In this document: positions 41,377 to 53,496 of the stretch, piece after piece
Numbering within the stretch: position 1 is the stretch's first letter
How the letters are laid out: each line of letters begins with the position of its first letter
Assembly: GCF_006543045.1 (NCBI RefSeq)
Contig: NZ_RBZW01000076.1
Location: forward strand, 118,820-182,819
Direction of reading: 5' to 3'
DNA: 64,000 nucleotides
DNA from: Salinadaptatus halalkaliphilus
GTDB taxonomy: Archaea; Halobacteriota; Halobacteria; Halobacteriales; Natrialbaceae
Made by a program: the position numbers and the translations under genes
Notes under the pieces: model-generated
Seen by the model: the letters and a program-made list of their open reading frames with translations, nothing else
The model's database searches: none
Told to the model about the DNA's origin: nothing

Positions 41377-42162
41377 TTAGAGCCGGACTGCTTCACCGTC
41401 TTCAGTGTAGAGGTCGGGCGATCGCAGTTCAACCTGCGAGGTCGCGCCCGATGGTGAGACGATGTCGAGGGTTGCCTCGTCGCCCTCACCGAAGACATCT
41501 TCATCATCAAGATTGTCAAGATCTAGCTCGGTTCCTCCATCACTAATAGAATCATGTTCACCGAACGGGTCCACCTTGGGGTTGATCAGAATAGTGAACT
41601 CACTATTCTCATCGGTGAGAACAGCCTCGCTCGGTTGGACGAAATTACCGTCATCGTCCTCAACTGCGAAGTAACCGCTTTCTATATGGCGGGGTAAGGC
41701 ATTTTCATCTGCGTCATTAGTATCAACAGTATCATCACCCGTTGGGACATCAATCCCTTCAGCGTCAGCAATACTTTCATCTTCATCTTCTGGACCTGCT
41801 AATACGAGATTCTCCTGTCCTTCTGGAGCGACAACCTGGATAATCGTCTCATTGAGATCGATGTCGTCGGCACCAGGGGCACCAGTTACACCGAGACGAA
41901 TTTCACTGAGCTCACCACGGTCAGCACCACCATCAATACCGTCGTCATACTCTGAGACGATACCAACTTCACTCGTGACTTCAATCTGCTCGGAGACGAG
42001 GTCAGTACTCTCTTCACCCGTTGCTTCGGCCTGCGTCTGCAACATGCCGGCCGTGTTGATCAGTACGCCTGCGGCAATGGCAGCGACCAGCACCATCGCG
42101 ATAAACACGATAAGCGTGCCGATCCCTACCTGACCTCTGTCAGTTGATTCGTTTGCGAACAT
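41377..42162 (-). CDS. Archaellin, B-type, sixth in the array
   Basis: The 261-residue protein has the class III signal [10 protein letters not shown], cut by archaeal prepilin peptidase before [16 protein letters not shown]. It belongs to the B group: [28 protein letters not shown] and a C-terminal [20 protein letters not shown]. The central region ([17 protein letters not shown] and around) is longer and divergent. N-E-T is a possible N-glycosylation site. It starts 2 bp after the preceding A-type gene. Confidence 0.95.
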
Positions 42163-42164
42163 GA

Positions 42165-42770
42165 TTACAGCCTCACCGATTCATCCTCGTCAGTGATCGT
42201 CGTCGGGACCCGGATCTCCGCTTGCGTCGTTGCACCGGCATCCGTCGTGAAGATCACCGTTAGTTGTTCACCTTCCTCGAGATTGTCCCAACTGTTATCA
42301 ATCTCATTATCAGATCCATCTCCGACAGTGAATACGACTTCAGCACGATCACTGGTATCAGTCAGGACAGGATCGTTATCAGCATCCGAGACACCCTGAA
42401 TGTTATTGACGTACTCGTTAGTGGCATCGGCATCGATGACAACTGTCTGCTCACCCTGTTCACCGATGAACTGAGCCGTCGTCTTGTTCAGGTCGATCGG
42501 ATCGGAGCCTGGGGCCATCGCCATGACGAATCGAAGATCTTCGACTTCGTTACTATCGTCAACGGTCCCCGAGATACTCACGATTTCCAGTCGATCGCTG
42601 ACCTGCTGGGTCGATTCTTCACCGGTGGCTTCTGCTTGCGTCTGCAGCATACCAGCCGTGTTGATCAGTACACCTGCGGCAATGGCAGCGACCAGTACCA
42701 TCGCGATGAACACGATGAGCGTACCGATCCCTACTTGACCGCGATCCGATTCCGAGTTGTTGACAAACAT
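42165..42770 (-). CDS. Archaellin, A-type, fifth in the array
   Basis: The 201-residue protein has signal [11 protein letters not shown] followed by the shared [16 protein letters not shown] helix. A-group features are [32 protein letters not shown] and the tail [17 protein letters not shown] is a possible glycosylation site. An 18-bp gap separates it from the preceding B gene, the widest in the array. Confidence 0.95.
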
Positions 42771-42788
42771 GTATAATTCTAGGAGTTA

Positions 42789-43619
42789 TTAGAGTTGCAC
42801 TGCTTCACCGGCATCAGTGTAGAGGTCAGGTGATCGCAATTCGACCTGCGAGGTAGCGCCCGATGGCGAGACGATGCTGAGGGTTGCCTCGTCACCTTCG
42901 CCGAAGGCGGATTCGCCACCGCCGTCGCCATCAGCAAGGGCGTGGATTTCAAGGTCACCATCGCTTTCGCTTTCTTGTGATCCGAACGGCTCTACCATCG
43001 GATTGATAACAATAGTGAACTCACCATTATTATCATTCAAGACTGCATCGCTTGCTGAGACGAAATTACCGTCCTCGTCTTCAACCGCGAAGTAACCCTG
43101 TGCAATGTGCCGGGGTTCAGTTTCAGTAGATGCATCTGTAGTAGTTGGATCCCCAGGGTCGTCCTCGTCCTCTTCATCCGAGACTTGGACAAAGCTATCC
43201 GTCTCATCCATATCACCATCACCGGGATCAGCAAGGACAAGATTTGCTTGTCCTTCCGGACCAACAACCTGAATGATGGTCTCGTTGAGATCAATGTCAT
43301 CAGCACCTGGTGCACCAGTCACACCGAGGCGAATTTCGCTGAGTTCACCGCGGTCAGCTCCATCAAAAGTCTCGGCAGGGTTAGCAGGATCATCCTCTAC
43401 ATCCGCTTCAGAGACGATCCCAACGTCACTCGTCACGTCAATCCGTTCGGAGACGAGGTCGGTACTCTCTTCACCAGTCGCTTCGGCCTGGGTCTGCAAC
43501 ATACCGGCCGTGTTGATTAGCACGCCGGCAGCGATCGCAGCGACCAGCACCATCGCGATGAACACGATGAGCGTGCCGATCCCCACTTGGCCTCTGTCAG
43601 TTGAGTCGTTTGCGAACAT
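42789..43619 (-). CDS. Archaellin, B-type, fourth in the array (longest)
   Basis: The 276-residue protein has signal [10 protein letters not shown] and the common helix. It is B-type ([38 protein letters not shown]). It has the longest variable centre, with an acidic run ([18 protein letters not shown]) and the segment [20 protein letters not shown], shared with the sixth gene as [13 protein letters not shown]. It starts 2 bp after the third gene. Confidence 0.95.
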
Positions 43620-43621
43620 GG

Positions 43622-44230
43622 TTACAGCCTCACTGCGTCATCCTCGTCGATGATCGTCGTCGGAACCCGGATTTCGGTTTGCGTCGTCGCACCGGAGTCC
43701 GTCGTGAAGACCACCGTTACTTGTTCACCCTCTGGGAGGGGATCCCAATCGCCTACATCTCCGTCGTCAAGATCAAACTGGATCTCGACACGATCACTGT
43801 TATCAGTTAATACAGGTTCTTCTGCATCACTGACACCCTGGATCGGCTCAAATTCTTCTTCGCTGGCACCCGTTTCAGTAGCATCCAGCGCCAACGTTTC
43901 CTCACCTTGTGGACCGATGAACTGGGCCGTCGTTTGATTCAGATCAATCGGGTCGGAGCCAGGTGCCATCGCCATGACGAACCGAAGTTCATCAATGACA
44001 TTATCCCCAGCATCTTCACCAACATCTCCCGAAACACTCACGACTTCTAGTCGATCGCTGACCTGCTGGGTCGATTCTTCACCGGTGGCTTCTGCCTGGG
44101 TCTGCAGCATGCCGGCCGTGTTGATCAAGACGCCCGCGGCGATTGCGGCGACCAGCACCATCGCGATGAACACGATGAGTGTCCCGATCCCCACTTGACC
44201 ACGGTCGTCTTCGCTTTGCGTAGTGAACAT
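43622..44230 (-). CDS. Archaellin, A-type, third in the array
   Basis: The 202-residue protein has signal [11 protein letters not shown], the common helix and A-type markers ([43 protein letters not shown]). N-Q-T is a possible glycosylation site. The TAA stop is followed by CC and the ATG of the fourth gene. Confidence 0.95.
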
Positions 44231-44235
44231 GGGCC

Positions 44236-44886
44236 TTAGAGTTGGACTGCCTCTCCGTCCTCAGTGAACAGATCCGGTGCGATGAGTTCGACCTGCGTGG
44301 TTGCACCCGATGGCGAGACGATGTCGAGGGTTGCCTCGTCGCCTTCACCGAAGGCATCTGGACCTGTGCCAGCTCCAAACGGATCTTCCTTAGGGTCAAG
44401 GGTAATGACGAAGTCTCCGTTATCCGACCTCAGAACGGCATCATCGGGGCCACTAAGAGTCCCGTCACCTGTCTTTTCGACACCGAATGCCCCGGCACCA
44501 TGATCGAGCCCAGTTCCAGAAGTCCCATCGTCCTCAGATAATATGAGATTCTCTTGCCCTTCTGGTCCCACAGCCTGAATGATCGTCTCGTTGAGATCAA
44601 TGTCATCAGCACCTGCTGCTCCGGTCACGCCAATACGGATTTCCTCCAGCGCGCCATCGTCTGCACCGGAAGTGTCTTCGACAATCCCGACTTCACTCGT
44701 CACATCAATCCGTTCGGAGACGAGATCCGTACTCTCTTCACCGGTTGCTTCAGCCTGCGTCTGCAACATGCCGGCGGTGTTGATGAGCACACCCGCGGCG
44801 ATTGCAGCGACCAGTACCATCGCGATGAACACGATGAGCGTCCCGATTCCCACCTGACCGCGCTCTGTAGAGTCGTTTGCGAACAT
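44236..44886 (-). CDS. Archaellin, B-type, second in the array
   Basis: The 216-residue protein has signal [10 protein letters not shown] and the common helix. It is B-type ([24 protein letters not shown]) with a tail [20 protein letters not shown]. Its centre ([20 protein letters not shown]) is the shortest of the B group and lacks the YFAVED segment of the others. Confidence 0.95.
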
Positions 44887-44888
44887 GA

Positions 44889-45497
44889 TTACAGCCTCAC
44901 CGATTCGTCTTCATCGGTAATCGTCGTCGGCACACGGATTTCCGTCTGCGTCGACGCACCAGCGTCCGTCGTGAAGATTACCGTTAGTTGTTCTCCTTCC
45001 TCGAGTGGGTCCCAATCGAGGCCATTCTCGCCATCCCCATCAACATCAAATATCAATTCGACACGATCACTAGTATCCGTCAAAACCGGTTCGTCCTCAT
45101 CGTCAACACCTTGGATTAGTTCGACGTAGTCGTTAGTGCCGCCACCACCAGATTCATCAGCGTTAATGGCCTTCATTTCTTCACCCTGTTCACCGATGAA
45201 CTGGGCAGTCGTCTGATTCAGATCGATCGGATCCGAGCCAGGCGCCATCGCCATAACGAACTTTAGCTGGTTGACCTCGTTACTCTCATCAATCTCTCCC
45301 GAGGTACTCACAATTTCCAGCCGATCGCTCACTTGCTGTGTCGATTCTTCACCGGTGGCTTCTGCTTGCGTTTGCAGCATACCAGCCGTATTGATCAGTA
45401 CGCCCGCGGCAATCGCAGCGACCAGCACCATCGCGATAAACACGATAAGCGTGCCGATCCCCACCTGACCGCGCTCTGTATCGTCGTTCGTAAACAT
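44889..45497 (-). CDS. Archaellin, A-type, first in the array (promoter-proximal)
   Basis: The 202-residue protein has signal [10 protein letters not shown] and the common helix, with A-type markers ([43 protein letters not shown]). I chose the ATG at 45497 because it places the peptidase site at residue 10 as in the others. A hairpin (CCCGC-N5-GCGGG, 45515-45529) lies in its leader. As the first gene it should be the most strongly expressed. Confidence 0.95.
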
Positions 45498-46849: not shown

Positions 46850-47233
46850 TCAATACCCCACCGTTTCCACTCCCTCGACACGCTCGAAGTCCCCGTCACG
46901 GGTCACGAGACGAGCCCCGTTGTGGCGACAGGTGGCCGCGATCAGGATGTCCCCGAGATTGATCGGTGCGCCGGCCTCGAGCAGTTCGGCTTCGATCACC
47001 GCAGCTTCACGAGCGATCGACTCGGTCTGTTCCAGTGGTTCGATCCAATCGAGGGCGTCTGCGACACGATCGACGCCATCGCGGCCGGCCGTGCGTGCCC
47101 CACCCCGATACGCTTCGAACAGCGTCAGCGTCGTCGCGAAGAACGGCTTGTTCCGGTGGGCCTCGAGAAACGCGGCCGTCGCAGGCTCCTCCTCAAGGTA
47201 ATCCACGAGAAACGTCGTGTCAAGGACTATCAC
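46850..47233 (-). CDS. vapC: PIN-domain toxin VapC
   Basis: The 127-residue protein is a PIN ribonuclease. Acidic residues expected at the metal site appear in VLDTTFLVDYLEE (Asp), ATTLTLFEAYRGG (Glu), INLGDILIAAT (Asp) and RDGDFERV (Asp). It overlaps vapB by four bases, so the pair is translated together. Confidence 0.92.
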   Translation of the reverse strand: MIVLDTTFLVDYLEEEPATAAFLEAHRNKPFFATTLTLFEAYRGGARTAGRDGVDRVADALDWIEPLEQTESIAREAAVIEAELLEAGAPINLGDILIAATCRHNGARLVTRDGDFERVEGVETVGY

Positions 47234-47454
47234 CGCCGCTCACGCTCTCTGAGGTCGGAATCGAACTCCGCACGCGAGGATTCGACCGCGTCCGCGAACC
47301 CGTCGACGTCTTTCATCGCACCGAAGCCTTTCATTACGTCCCGGTTGCTCCCAGTGATTCGAACGATCGTCTCGGTAAAGCTTTCGTCGTCGCGTTTGTG
47401 CTCTTTCAGGGCTTCGTAGGCCGCTTCGGTGATCGTTATCGTTTTGGTGCCCAT
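47230..47454 (-). CDS. vapB: VapB-family antitoxin (DUF217-like)
   Basis: The 74-residue protein starts MGTKTITITEAAYEALKEHK, a ribbon-helix-helix DNA-binding fold, followed by RDDESFTETIVRI and a C-terminal part likely to bind VapC. I chose the ATG at 47454 because the upstream sequence holds the TATA and operator. It overlaps vapC by four bases. Confidence 0.9.
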   Translation of the reverse strand: MGTKTITITEAAYEALKEHKRDDESFTETIVRITGSNRDVMKGFGAMKDVDGFADAVESSRAEFDSDLRERERR

Positions 47455-50043: not shown

Positions 50044-50197
50044 GGCACGGGTTCGAGCCGAATCGGAAGCGGTGTAGTCGGTTTGCCAGCGGACGGTCCT
50101 GTCGCAGGGGTGGACGACAACCGCGTCGAATTCACGTCGCTATCGCATACGCAAGGCCAACCACCACAACACTGTCGCACGTGGGTTTTGCCGAATA

Positions 50198-51223
50198 ATG
50201 AGAGCGGAACAGAGCGTTGGCGATTCCGACGACTGTTCAGAGAAGGCAACGGTCCGGGAGCCGTCGATGAGGACTGCTACCGGAGAACTTCGCACCGACG
50301 GCGGGCAGGCACAGGTCGAAGCGGACGAATCGGACGACGAACGGACCGAAGAGCAAGCCGACGAGGAAACCGACGCAGCCGACGGGGAGGAGAGGGACAC
50401 GGAAGGCAGCGATGAGACGGACGCAGACGAAGGGGAAACCCAAGGCGAAACCGACGACGGTGAAAGCGAAGACGACGAAGCCGCGACCGGCGGAGAATCC
50501 GAAGTGGAGGACGAGACGTCGGACGAGGAGGCGGCCAGCGACGAAACGAGCGACACGGACGAGGAAGACGAGTCCCACGTCGAGGACGCCGACGACGTCT
50601 ACGAGAGCGACGACGCCTCGGGGGTCGTCCACCTCGATCTCGAGGGACTCTTTCTCGACGTCCTCGGCCTCGAGGTCAACCTGAACGAGGTAACCCTCGA
50701 TGTCTCGGCGCGGCCGGGTGAGAACAACTTGCTCGGGAACCTCCTGTCGGCGGTGTCCGGATTGCTCGACGGACCGAGCGCGGTTCTCGACAGCGTGAAG
50801 TCCATGCTGGCAAAGCCCAAGGAGTGGTTCACCGGGCTGTTGCAACGACCGAAGGAGTTTCTCGCGTCGGTGCCGACTCGAGCCAGGGAGTTCCTCGGCG
50901 GATTCGTGAGTCGAACGACCGAGTTTCTGGCCGGATTGTTCGGCGTCGGCGGCGAGGGCGAGGAGCCAGCAGGCGAAGACGAGGCGGGAGCCGGCGAGGA
51001 GGAAGAGGCCGACAACGAACCCGAAGAGTCCGCCGGACGGATCTCCCGTGCGATGAGTTGGCTCAGGGAGAAACTCGTCGGCGTCGTCCCCGGGCTGCCG
51101 ATCGAGGAACTCGTCGCGACGGTCGTTCGCGAGGTGCTCCAGCAGGTGATCGATCAGCTCGAGCCCGAGGACGACCAGCCAGCGGGTGAGGAAGGCGCCG
51201 CACAAGCGGAGGCCCAATCATGA
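50198..51223 (+). CDS. Acidic cassette protein 1: LGL-motif domain and four 11-residue amphipathic repeats
   Basis: The 341-residue protein begins with about 140 residues rich in Asp/Glu. It then has LDLEGLFLDVLGLEVNLNEV followed by LGNLLSAVSGLLDG, a motif I recall from uncharacterised bacterial proteins. Next come four 11-residue units, KPKEWFTGLLQ, RPKEFLASVPT, RAREFLGGFVS and RTTEFLAGLFG, like amphipathic lipid-binding helices. A second acidic linker and a C-terminal helix pair (PIEELVATVVREVLQQVIDQ) close it. The start is ATG 50198 or an internal ATG 23 codons later. It overlaps gene 2 by four bases. Confidence 0.65.
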   Translation: MRAEQSVGDSDDCSEKATVREPSMRTATGELRTDGGQAQVEADESDDERTEEQADEETDAADGEERDTEGSDETDADEGETQGETDDGESEDDEAATGGESEVEDETSDEEAASDETSDTDEEDESHVEDADDVYESDDASGVVHLDLEGLFLDVLGLEVNLNEVTLDVSARPGENNLLGNLLSAVSGLLDGPSAVLDSVKSMLAKPKEWFTGLLQRPKEFLASVPTRAREFLGGFVSRTTEFLAGLFGVGGEGEEPAGEDEAGAGEEEEADNEPEESAGRISRAMSWLREKLVGVVPGLPIEELVATVVREVLQQVIDQLEPEDDQPAGEEGAAQAEAQS

Positions 51224-51726
51224 GTGACGGATCACTGACCCAGCGGATCGACTACGAGTCGCTTGCGGAGAACATCGACGTCGCAGAGTTAGTCGAGGGG
51301 ACCCAGTGGGAAGACGAGATCGACGAGGATCGACCGTTGGGTGAGGCCCTCGGCGCCCAGATCGGCGCGCTGGTCGGACGCAAAGTCGGCGAGCAGATCG
51401 GCCGGACGATCGGCGAGATGGTCGTCGAAGAGCTGCTCCAACCCGACGAAGCGGCGGGCGAAGACGAGACAGAAGGCGACGAGGGCGAGGAAGACGAGGA
51501 GACTGCTGCCGATGACGAGGAAACCGGGGGCGAAGACGAAGAGAGCGAAGAGGAACGCGAGGACGACGAATCGGGTGCGGACGAGATGGACGAGACGGAC
51601 GACACGGACGATGACGAACAGAGCGAGGACTCGAGCGAAGAAGCCGACGAGGGGAGCGACGCCGAAGACGCCGAGGCCGAGGACGCGGAGGAAAACGACA
51701 CAGGAGAAACCGACGAGGGGGAATAG
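51220..51726 (+). CDS. Acidic cassette protein 2: glycine-zipper protein
   Basis: The 168-residue protein has an N-terminal region (MSDGSLTQRIDYESLAENID), then a glycine zipper with Gly every four residues (LGAQIGALVGRKVGEQIGRT), and an acidic tail of about 80 residues. Glycine zippers favour helix packing or membrane oligomers. It overlaps gene 1 by ATGA and is followed directly by gene 3. Confidence 0.62.
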   Translation: MSDGSLTQRIDYESLAENIDVAELVEGTQWEDEIDEDRPLGEALGAQIGALVGRKVGEQIGRTIGEMVVEELLQPDEAAGEDETEGDEGEEDEETAADDEETGGEDEESEEEREDDESGADEMDETDDTDDDEQSEDSSEEADEGSDAEDAEAEDAEENDTGETDEGE

Positions 51727-52557
51727 ATGAGCGACGGAACGGACCTCAAACAGGTCGTCACCGACGAAGTGAGCGAGCAACTCGAGGTGGATGACCTGCT
51801 CGGCGACGGCACGATTCGAGACGCCATCGACGGCGACGAACTCGGCGCGGCAGTCGGGCGCACATTCGGCGAGCAAGTTGGGCGCGCGTTCGGCGCCGCG
51901 ATCGGCCGCAAGATCCACCTGGCGATCGCCGATGCGGTCGAACAGGAGAAAGACCGGCAGGAACTGCAATCGGATCTCACCACAGCGGTTCGTGATGCCG
52001 TCAGCGAGACCGTCCAGGGGGCGGCCGTCTCGGACTCGGTGCGATCGCTGCTTGGCGAAGCGACCGGCGAGGGCGACCTCGCGGACCTGCTCGAGGACGA
52101 GAAGACCGACGCCGACGAGGGCGACGAGGCCGAACGCGATTCCGAGAGCGAGGGCGACGACGAATCGGCGGACGAGCAAACGGAAGACGACGCGGAAACG
52201 GAGCCCGACGACGCCGAAGCCGAGATGGACGCCCAGGACGAATCGGGCGATGCCGAGGACGGCGACGAAAGCACCGAGGACGACTCGAGTGGCCCGTCAG
52301 CGGGGAACCTCGAGGAGCTTCGAACGGAGACGCTCGAGGATTTCCTGGGCGTGATGTCCTACGAGGAGTTGCAGTCGATCGCGAAAGACATCGACGTGAA
52401 GGCGAATCTCAGTCGCGAGGAGATGACGGCGGAAATCATCGAGACGGTGTCCGACGAGGCAGACGAGACGTCCGGCGATGCGGATGCGGGTGACGCCGAC
52501 GACTCGAGCGAAGACGGCGACGAGACGGATACCGAGTCGGAAGCCAAAGCCAGCTAA
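51727..52557 (+). CDS. Acidic cassette protein 3: glycine zipper plus SAP/Rho-N-like segment
   Basis: The 276-residue protein is related to protein 2 at its N-terminus (MSDGTDLKQVVTDEVSEQLE) and zipper (LGAAVGRTFGEQVGRAFGAA). After an acidic linker comes MSYEELQSIAKDIDVKANLS then REEMTAEIIETV, similar to SAP or Rho N-terminal helical domains that bind nucleic acid or protein. The ATG follows the stop of gene 2 with no gap. Confidence 0.62.
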   Translation: MSDGTDLKQVVTDEVSEQLEVDDLLGDGTIRDAIDGDELGAAVGRTFGEQVGRAFGAAIGRKIHLAIADAVEQEKDRQELQSDLTTAVRDAVSETVQGAAVSDSVRSLLGEATGEGDLADLLEDEKTDADEGDEAERDSESEGDDESADEQTEDDAETEPDDAEAEMDAQDESGDAEDGDESTEDDSSGPSAGNLEELRTETLEDFLGVMSYEELQSIAKDIDVKANLSREEMTAEIIETVSDEADETSGDADAGDADDSSEDGDETDTESEAKAS

Positions 52558-52656
52558 CGACCGTCCCAGGAAACGGCGGATCGGCCCACGAAAACGGGAA
52601 CCGCCCAGCGAGATGCCGGCGTACGCAACCGCCCGTCAAATCGGGCCCCGATACCC

Positions 52657-53496
52657 ATGAGCGATTCACCACACGACCAGGTAACCGAAATCCTGGCCAC
52701 GGCCGACGAGCGAAGCCACGTACTCGTCGCGGCGGACGATCCAGACGAGACCATCGACTCGAGCGAGTCGGCAGAATCGTCGTTACTCGAGGCGGCAGCG
52801 GAAGCCACAGCGTTCCTCGAGTCGGCCGATCCCGAGGACGTGCTCGCGGCGGTCGGCCTCGAGACGCTGCCCGACGGGAGCGAGCCGTCCTCGATCCCCG
52901 ACGCGATCGCTCGCGGCGACGAGTCACGGGTCGACGATCTGAAACGCTTGCTGAATCTCGCGAAACTGGCCGACGACAGTGACGAGGGTGACCTCGAGGC
53001 GGCGTCGGCCCACGTCCGAGCACGGCGCGAGGGTGGCGAGGCCGGAGACGACGACCGTACTGCGTCCGAAACCGACGATGGACGCGACGAGACTGCAGCG
53101 GACGACGAGGAACCAGCCGGCGAAGACGACGAGACACCGGCGGACATCGGCGATGCGATCAAATCGGCGCTGCAATCGACGGTGACGGAAGTCGGCGACG
53201 ACGTCGGGACGCTCCGCGAGCGACTCGAGGCGGCGAGTGGCTCGCTCGAGTCGGACAACGATACGGACGCGGAAACCGACGCGGAGACGGCCTCCGACGA
53301 CGGGAAATCGGCGTCGACCGATGCCGACGACGACACCGACGGAGACGACAAATTCCTCGAGATGGAGTTTGGCTCCGACGACTCGGCGACCAGTCGTGGG
53401 GTGGTTCGGCATTCGACGGTCGCGTCGTCACCGTCCGATCGAGCGGATATGCGGGGGACGGCTCGACACTCGACGATGCCGGACAAAAGCAGGTGA
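52657..53496 (+). CDS. Acidic cassette protein 4: unknown
   Basis: The 279-residue protein has a helical N-terminal domain (SPHDQVTEILATADERSHVL, ESADPEDVLAAVGLETLPDG, SRVDDLKRLLNLAKLADD), then long acidic linkers around a short helix (DIGDAIKSALQSTVTEVGDD) and a C-terminal basic/His part (VVRHSTVA, ARHSTMPDK). It is 99 bp after gene 3 on the same strand. No catalytic motif is visible. It probably works with proteins 1-3. Confidence 0.6.
   Translation: MSDSPHDQVTEILATADERSHVLVAADDPDETIDSSESAESSLLEAAAEATAFLESADPEDVLAAVGLETLPDGSEPSSIPDAIARGDESRVDDLKRLLNLAKLADDSDEGDLEAASAHVRARREGGEAGDDDRTASETDDGRDETAADDEEPAGEDDETPADIGDAIKSALQSTVTEVGDDVGTLRERLEAASGSLESDNDTDAETDAETASDDGKSASTDADDDTDGDDKFLEMEFGSDDSATSRGVVRHSTVASSPSDRADMRGTARHSTMPDKSR

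Follow-up and report, generated by a model that had tools for sequence, protein, structure and literature searches.

The 64,000-nucleotide stretch of Salinadaptatus halalkaliphilus DNA analysed here (the window) contains a cassette of four genes, P1 to P4, which lie on the forward strand between positions 50198 and 53496. P1 (50198..51223) and P2 (51220..51726) are joined by an ATGA overlap, P3 (51727..52557) follows P2 with a 0-nt gap, and P4 (52657..53496) is separated from P3 by 99 nt. Coordinates and junctions thus bear out the preliminary description of this DNA, in which four same-strand genes, the first three tightly coupled, had been noticed. None of the four proteins was matched above threshold by a Pfam or NCBIfam profile. 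The features of the cassette described below, and the element upstream of it, lie on the forward strand.

Conservation of the cassette

The gene order P1-P2-P3-P4 is conserved over about 30 haloarchaeal genera. In a sample of 61 genomes P1 was found in 34 and P3 in 31, and the order is kept in nearly all 20-kb neighbourhoods of this sample. The preliminary description had made its proposal depend on co-conservation of the four genes, and they are indeed conserved together and in order. The genes flanking the cassette vary among genomes and include cobalamin genes, acs/usp genes and others. Elsewhere in the window there are a tandem array of six archaellin-like paralogues whose N-termini are almost identical (41377-45497) and a VapBC-type toxin-antitoxin pair (46850-47454) with Pfam matches to PIN and VAPB_antitox.

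P1 has a conserved LGNLL domain and optional repeats

In P1 an acidic N-terminus is followed by an LGNLL domain (residues 145-192; 50630..50773), by four tandem 11-residue units (residues 206-249; 50813..50944) and by a C-terminal amphipathic helix (LPIEELVATVVREVLQQVIDQLE; 51095..51166). The LGL/LGNLL segment and the four consecutive units had been recognised from the sequence before and are both present, the lag-11 self-identity of P1 being reached in 0 of 2000 shuffles. In the orthologue alignment (A1) all invariant columns fall inside the LGNLL domain, making it the sole part of P1 with invariant residues; the C-terminal amphipathic helix is also conserved. The number of repeats varies among orthologues, and many of those outside the core genera have no 11-residue repeat at all, indicating that the repeats are a variable, optional decoration. 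The conserved feature of P1 thus lies elsewhere than in the repeats, and in this the P1 family departs from what would be expected of 11-residue repeat proteins of the synuclein and perilipin types, namely conserved amphipathic repeats.

In the model of a P1 fragment the amphipathic helix spans positions 168-187 with a pLDDT of 84-90, and the core was modelled with low to moderate confidence as a β-hairpin plus helices (model pLDDT 64). A search of the PDB with this model (pLDDT 64) returned no match. The idea that P1 has a GvpA-like fold was dropped, as the model, whose confidence is low, has no match in the PDB.

P2 and P3 are glycine-zipper paralogues

P2 is an acidic protein with a glycine zipper at residues 41-65 (51340..51414), in which G45, G49, G53 and G57 are invariant and G41 and G61 nearly so. 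The zipper of P3 comprises residues 40-60 (51844..51906) with G48, G52, G56 and G60 being invariant, and its region forms a confident helix (residues 36-73) in the AF2 model. Both proteins thus have the zippers that had been noted earlier, and a profile-profile comparison (probability 97.6%) shows them to be paralogues.

P3 additionally carries a C-terminal SAP/Rho-N-like segment (residues 200-246; 52324..52464). In the AF2 model the C-terminus of P3 consists of three helices (192-209, 212-221 and 230-248) with a pLDDT of about 90, which superpose on the SAP domain of DEK and on Rho with 0.8-1.0 Å across 42 residues. The corresponding Foldseek matches are recurrent and weak, with E-values above 1, and the Pfam profile SAP_new25 scores P3 with 12.1 bits, below its cut-off of 26.3. 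P3 thus resembles SAP/Rho-N domains in its modelled fold while staying under the sequence threshold, and a SAP/Rho-N-like identity of the segment is structurally plausible. The helix pair proposed earlier is accordingly modelled as a three-helix fold, with the sequence profile remaining below cut-off. At L086 and L089, which come from other families, the SAP-like end is found on P2 itself, which suggests that a single ancestral gene was duplicated to give P2 and P3.

The SAP/Rho-N-like fold also occurs in P2/P3-like proteins encoded within gvp clusters, and we found nothing in support of the connection to DNA that the preliminary description had considered. In a Natrialbaceae variant of GvpC (L105:11684-12931) a SAP-like end replaces the zinc finger present in GvpC of L120, L121 and L124; a kinship between this end and that of P3 was rejected at a profile probability of 25%.

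P4 is related to GvpI-type proteins

In gvp clusters that lack gvpC, the GvpI-type protein comprises about 250-350 residues (L099:10320-11213 and equivalents), is at least roughly twice as long as classical GvpI and has an additional N-terminal helical region that is also found in P4. GvpC-type clusters have the short GvpI, whereas GvpC-less clusters have the long form. P4 is homologous to the long form, as hhalign gave probabilities of 98.1% over 109 N-terminal columns and of 96.4% for the C-terminus, and 17 control comparisons with the N-terminal profile all stayed at or below 2.5%. Through its C-terminus the long protein itself matches classical GvpI (98.2%), and the direct match between P4 and classical GvpI is weaker (72.7%). 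At its C-terminus P4 shares the HSTxx / RADM / HSTMP motif (53386..53493) with GvpI-type proteins. The complete C-terminal STVP...RxYGxR motif is absent from P4, which stops after the HSTMP motif; lacking the terminal YGxR segment, P4 was classed as a relative of GvpI and not as GvpI itself. Moreover, P4 is encoded in the cassette, whereas a separate GvpI-type gene remains in the gvp cluster. Neither this resemblance nor the link to gas vesicles had been noticed in the preliminary description, although its account of the gene set was correct.

The cassette co-occurs with gas-vesicle genes

Gas vesicles are protein-walled, gas-filled flotation organelles with applications as ultrasound reporters and as carriers of antigens. 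We surveyed 392 genomes of the class Halobacteria with a completeness of at least 90%, 166 of which carry gvp genes and 226 of which do not. P1 was found in 134 of the 166 gvp-positive genomes and in one of the 226 gvp-negative genomes, this lone exception being a marginal match of 20 bits; conversely, 134 of 135 P1-positive genomes carry GvpA-family genes. Fisher's test gave 2e-72, a value inflated by the relatedness of the genomes, on account of which p-values overstate independence. In the 61-genome sample all P1-positive genomes are gvp-positive and P1 occurs in none of the 25 gvp-negative genomes.

Physical linkage was found as well, at first in three loci from other families. Overall, P1 adjoins or sits inside a gvp cluster in 15 loci, which are spread over seven families (f1, which is Natrialbaceae, f4, f5, f6, f12, f13 and f14). 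All four cassette genes abut the gvp cluster next to gvpO in L135, L136 and L137 and next to gvpL in L090, and in L091, L134 and L229 P1 lies between gvpH and the long gvpI, i.e. within the accessory operon. In Natrialbaceae the cassette is usually encoded apart from the gvp cluster. This holds for the genome of the window, where the cassette is not beside gvp genes and the gvp cluster (L099) is located on another contig (G000:C71). Co-occurrence with gvp genes, linkage in other families, the homology of P4 and the near-exclusion of GvpC described below together indicate a genetic tie of the cassette to gas vesicles, and it is very probably a gas-vesicle module. As a separate observation, the divergent region of two gvp clusters (L128 and L129) contains a P3-like gene as well as a second copy of gvpO.

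The preliminary description had suggested that the set could coat a membrane, a storage granule or another surface, with polyhydroxyalkanoate (PHA) granules named for comparison, and tie it to DNA or another partner. The amphipathic 11-residue repeats of P1 and the SAP/Rho-N-like segment of P3 would suit such a coat; many P1 orthologues, however, have no repeats, and gvp genes predict the presence of the cassette while its other neighbours change from genus to genus. On these grounds a PHA-granule or membrane coat was rejected, and any version of it is very improbable. The more general notion of a set that coats or builds a surface fits our data, but the gvp association points to the gas vesicle as this surface.

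LGNLL proteins in bacteria

A scan with a bacterial LGNLL consensus returned 72 loci across many phyla. These uncharacterised proteins have the same domain as the core of P1; the members examined mostly carry an apparent signal peptide, at a length of about 160-240 residues, and would thus mostly be secreted. Most of the tested bacterial genomes with LGNLL proteins, other than Kribbella, have no gvp genes, implying that the domain in general is not specific for gas vesicles. Some haloarchaea encode a second, diverged LGNLL protein apart from both gvp genes and cassette (L235, L236 and others, e.g. G049:C1:503387).

In Kribbella (Actinomycetota) we found a cytosolic LGNLL relative of the P1 core with about 100 residues and without signal peptide (L147:3221-3526 and L217-L222). 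Nine of 38 Kribbella genomes are gvp-positive, and all six LGNLL carriers are among those nine (p = 3e-5). In three of the six the LGNLL gene and gvp genes are no more than about 6 kb apart. Between the LGNLL gene and gvpA of K. pittospori there is a gene for a short protein whose end is Rho-N-like (L147:3919-4206).

The Kribbella case bears on the question of whether cassette and gvp genes have merely been retained in the same lineages, as a by-product of shared ancestry and without working together. As 90 of the 134 positive genomes come from one family, the observations are non-independent, which speaks for such a by-product. Against it, scattered genomes within four genera of Natrialbaceae (g6, g7, g9 and g10) lack both P1 and gvp genes, P1 is linked to gvp clusters in seven families, and both the homology of P4 to GvpI-type proteins and the Kribbella case are independent of haloarchaeal phylogeny. 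We consider common retention without common function hardly credible.

The cassette and GvpC are nearly exclusive

GvpC is the usual shell-strengthening protein of gas vesicles. Among gvp-positive genomes, GvpC was detected in one of 128 tested with and in 14 of 32 without the cassette (Fisher's test, 1.4e-10), using a profile (A2) that is built on four sequences and that a divergent GvpC could escape. The sole genome having both, G035, contains two gvp clusters. Searching the genome of the window with the same profile yielded no GvpC. Haloarchaeal GvpC and the cassette thus occupy nearly complementary sets of genomes.

Eighteen gvp-positive genomes have neither P1 nor GvpC, so some gvp clusters manage without either. 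We inspected 11 of them: in all 11 the cluster lacks gvpC and encodes the long form of GvpI, and in five a P2- or P3-like gene lies inside the gvp cluster.

Vac regions without gvpC and gvpDE have been described for several Natrialbaceae, with the species being reported as Vac-, and GvpC-less regions are known from Natrialba, Natrinema, Natronobacterium, Halopiger and Haladaptatus (PMC4390858). They represent the same kind of cluster as L099 of the genome studied here. The published gene list stops at the linked gvp genes (PMC4390858), and no reference to the cassette turned up.

P1 and haloarchaeal GvpC are alike in being large, acidic and tied to gvp genes, and some members of the family have helical repeats. 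Neither sequence nor fold similarity was found between them, the P1 model used for the fold comparison being of low confidence. They differ in that the conserved core of P1 is the LGNLL domain and that P1 belongs to a group of four genes, mostly unlinked to gvp in Natrialbaceae. Cyanobacterial GvpC binds along GvpA ribs via 33-residue helical repeats (PMC9994262). The 11-residue repeat of P1 would be commensurate with this length, which is only an analogy as many P1 proteins are repeat-free.

A candidate promoter element common to P1 and gvpA

About 54 bp before the start of P1 there is a conserved element, CGCATACGCAAGGCCAACCACCACAAC (50144..50170), which contains GCA-N3-GCA and is a candidate regulator site. 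Allowing for start calls, it precedes P1 in 31 of 32 Natrialbaceae loci. GCA-N3-GCA is also found upstream of gvpA (window of -70 to -40) in 11 of 14 loci, as compared to 3 of 704 other genes and to 1 of 16 loci for gvpF of the accessory operon. The full P1 and gvpA elements are each unique within the genome of the window. This would be compatible with a regulatory element common to both promoters; as the element was spotted after both promoters had been viewed, and as orthologous promoters are non-independent, the finding is suggestive only.

Discussion

We propose that the four genes form an accessory module for gas vesicles, serving in haloarchaeal vesicles without GvpC as the counterpart of GvpC and of part of the Halobacterium-type accessory set, a reading to which we assign a probability of roughly 0.6. 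Speaking against it are the Vac- state reported for named Natrialbaceae with GvpC-less clusters (PMC4390858), the 18 gvp-positive genomes without P1 and GvpC, the presence of both in G035, and the missing resemblance between P1 and GvpC. From the complementary distribution we infer that the cassette assumes the role of GvpC, or an equivalent role in assembly, in GvpC-less vesicles. That it replaces GvpC at the shell itself is an evenly balanced proposition. P1 would sit on the GvpA shell via its LGNLL domain and its amphipathic helices, stabilising or shaping it, and as a surface- or rib-associated protein it would do the job of GvpC by means of another fold. P2 and P3 may form glycine-zipper assemblies by which P1 and growing ribs are anchored or bridged, and P4 may be a GvpI-like partner in assembly or length control.

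It is possible, if less probable than the accessory-module reading as a whole, that the cassette serves assembly or its control and not the finished shell, acting as a low-abundance chaperone or nucleation complex in which the GvpI-like P4 is the link to GvpH, GvpF and GvpL. GvpI belongs to the minor accessory proteins and has GvpH as its partner (PMC9501494). P4 resembles it, the long GvpI form related to P4 is carried by GvpC-less clusters, and the position of P1 between gvpH and the long gvpI in three loci points in the same direction. A role in assembly alone leaves the near-exclusion with GvpC unexplained, however, and the promoter element of P1 is nearer to that of gvpA (11/14) than to that of gvpF (1/16). 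Returning to the counterpart of GvpC, one may go further and regard LGNLL proteins of archaea and bacteria as another class of gas-vesicle surface proteins beside GvpA and GvpC, with a four-protein coat based on P1 replacing GvpC in haloarchaea that lack it; this extension is tentative and we deem it rather doubtful.

Our literature searches, with subscription journals and preprints largely outside their range, returned no description of the cassette, of LGNLL proteins in a gas-vesicle context or of a module compensating for GvpC. Gas vesicles themselves are well known, but the module, its unlinked position, the exclusion of GvpC and the link between the LGNLL domain and gas vesicles appear to be undescribed in the literature searched. 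GvpC-less haloarchaeal clusters have been treated as reduced but sufficient, the apparently gas-vesicle-negative state of their owners being left open (PMC4390858). According to our analysis such a cluster may be incomplete, with further components encoded at other sites of the genome, namely in a conserved and mostly unlinked four-gene module. This module would offer a new set of shell-modifying proteins for engineering and would provide a first clue to the function of the LGNLL domain, which is widespread and uncharacterised.
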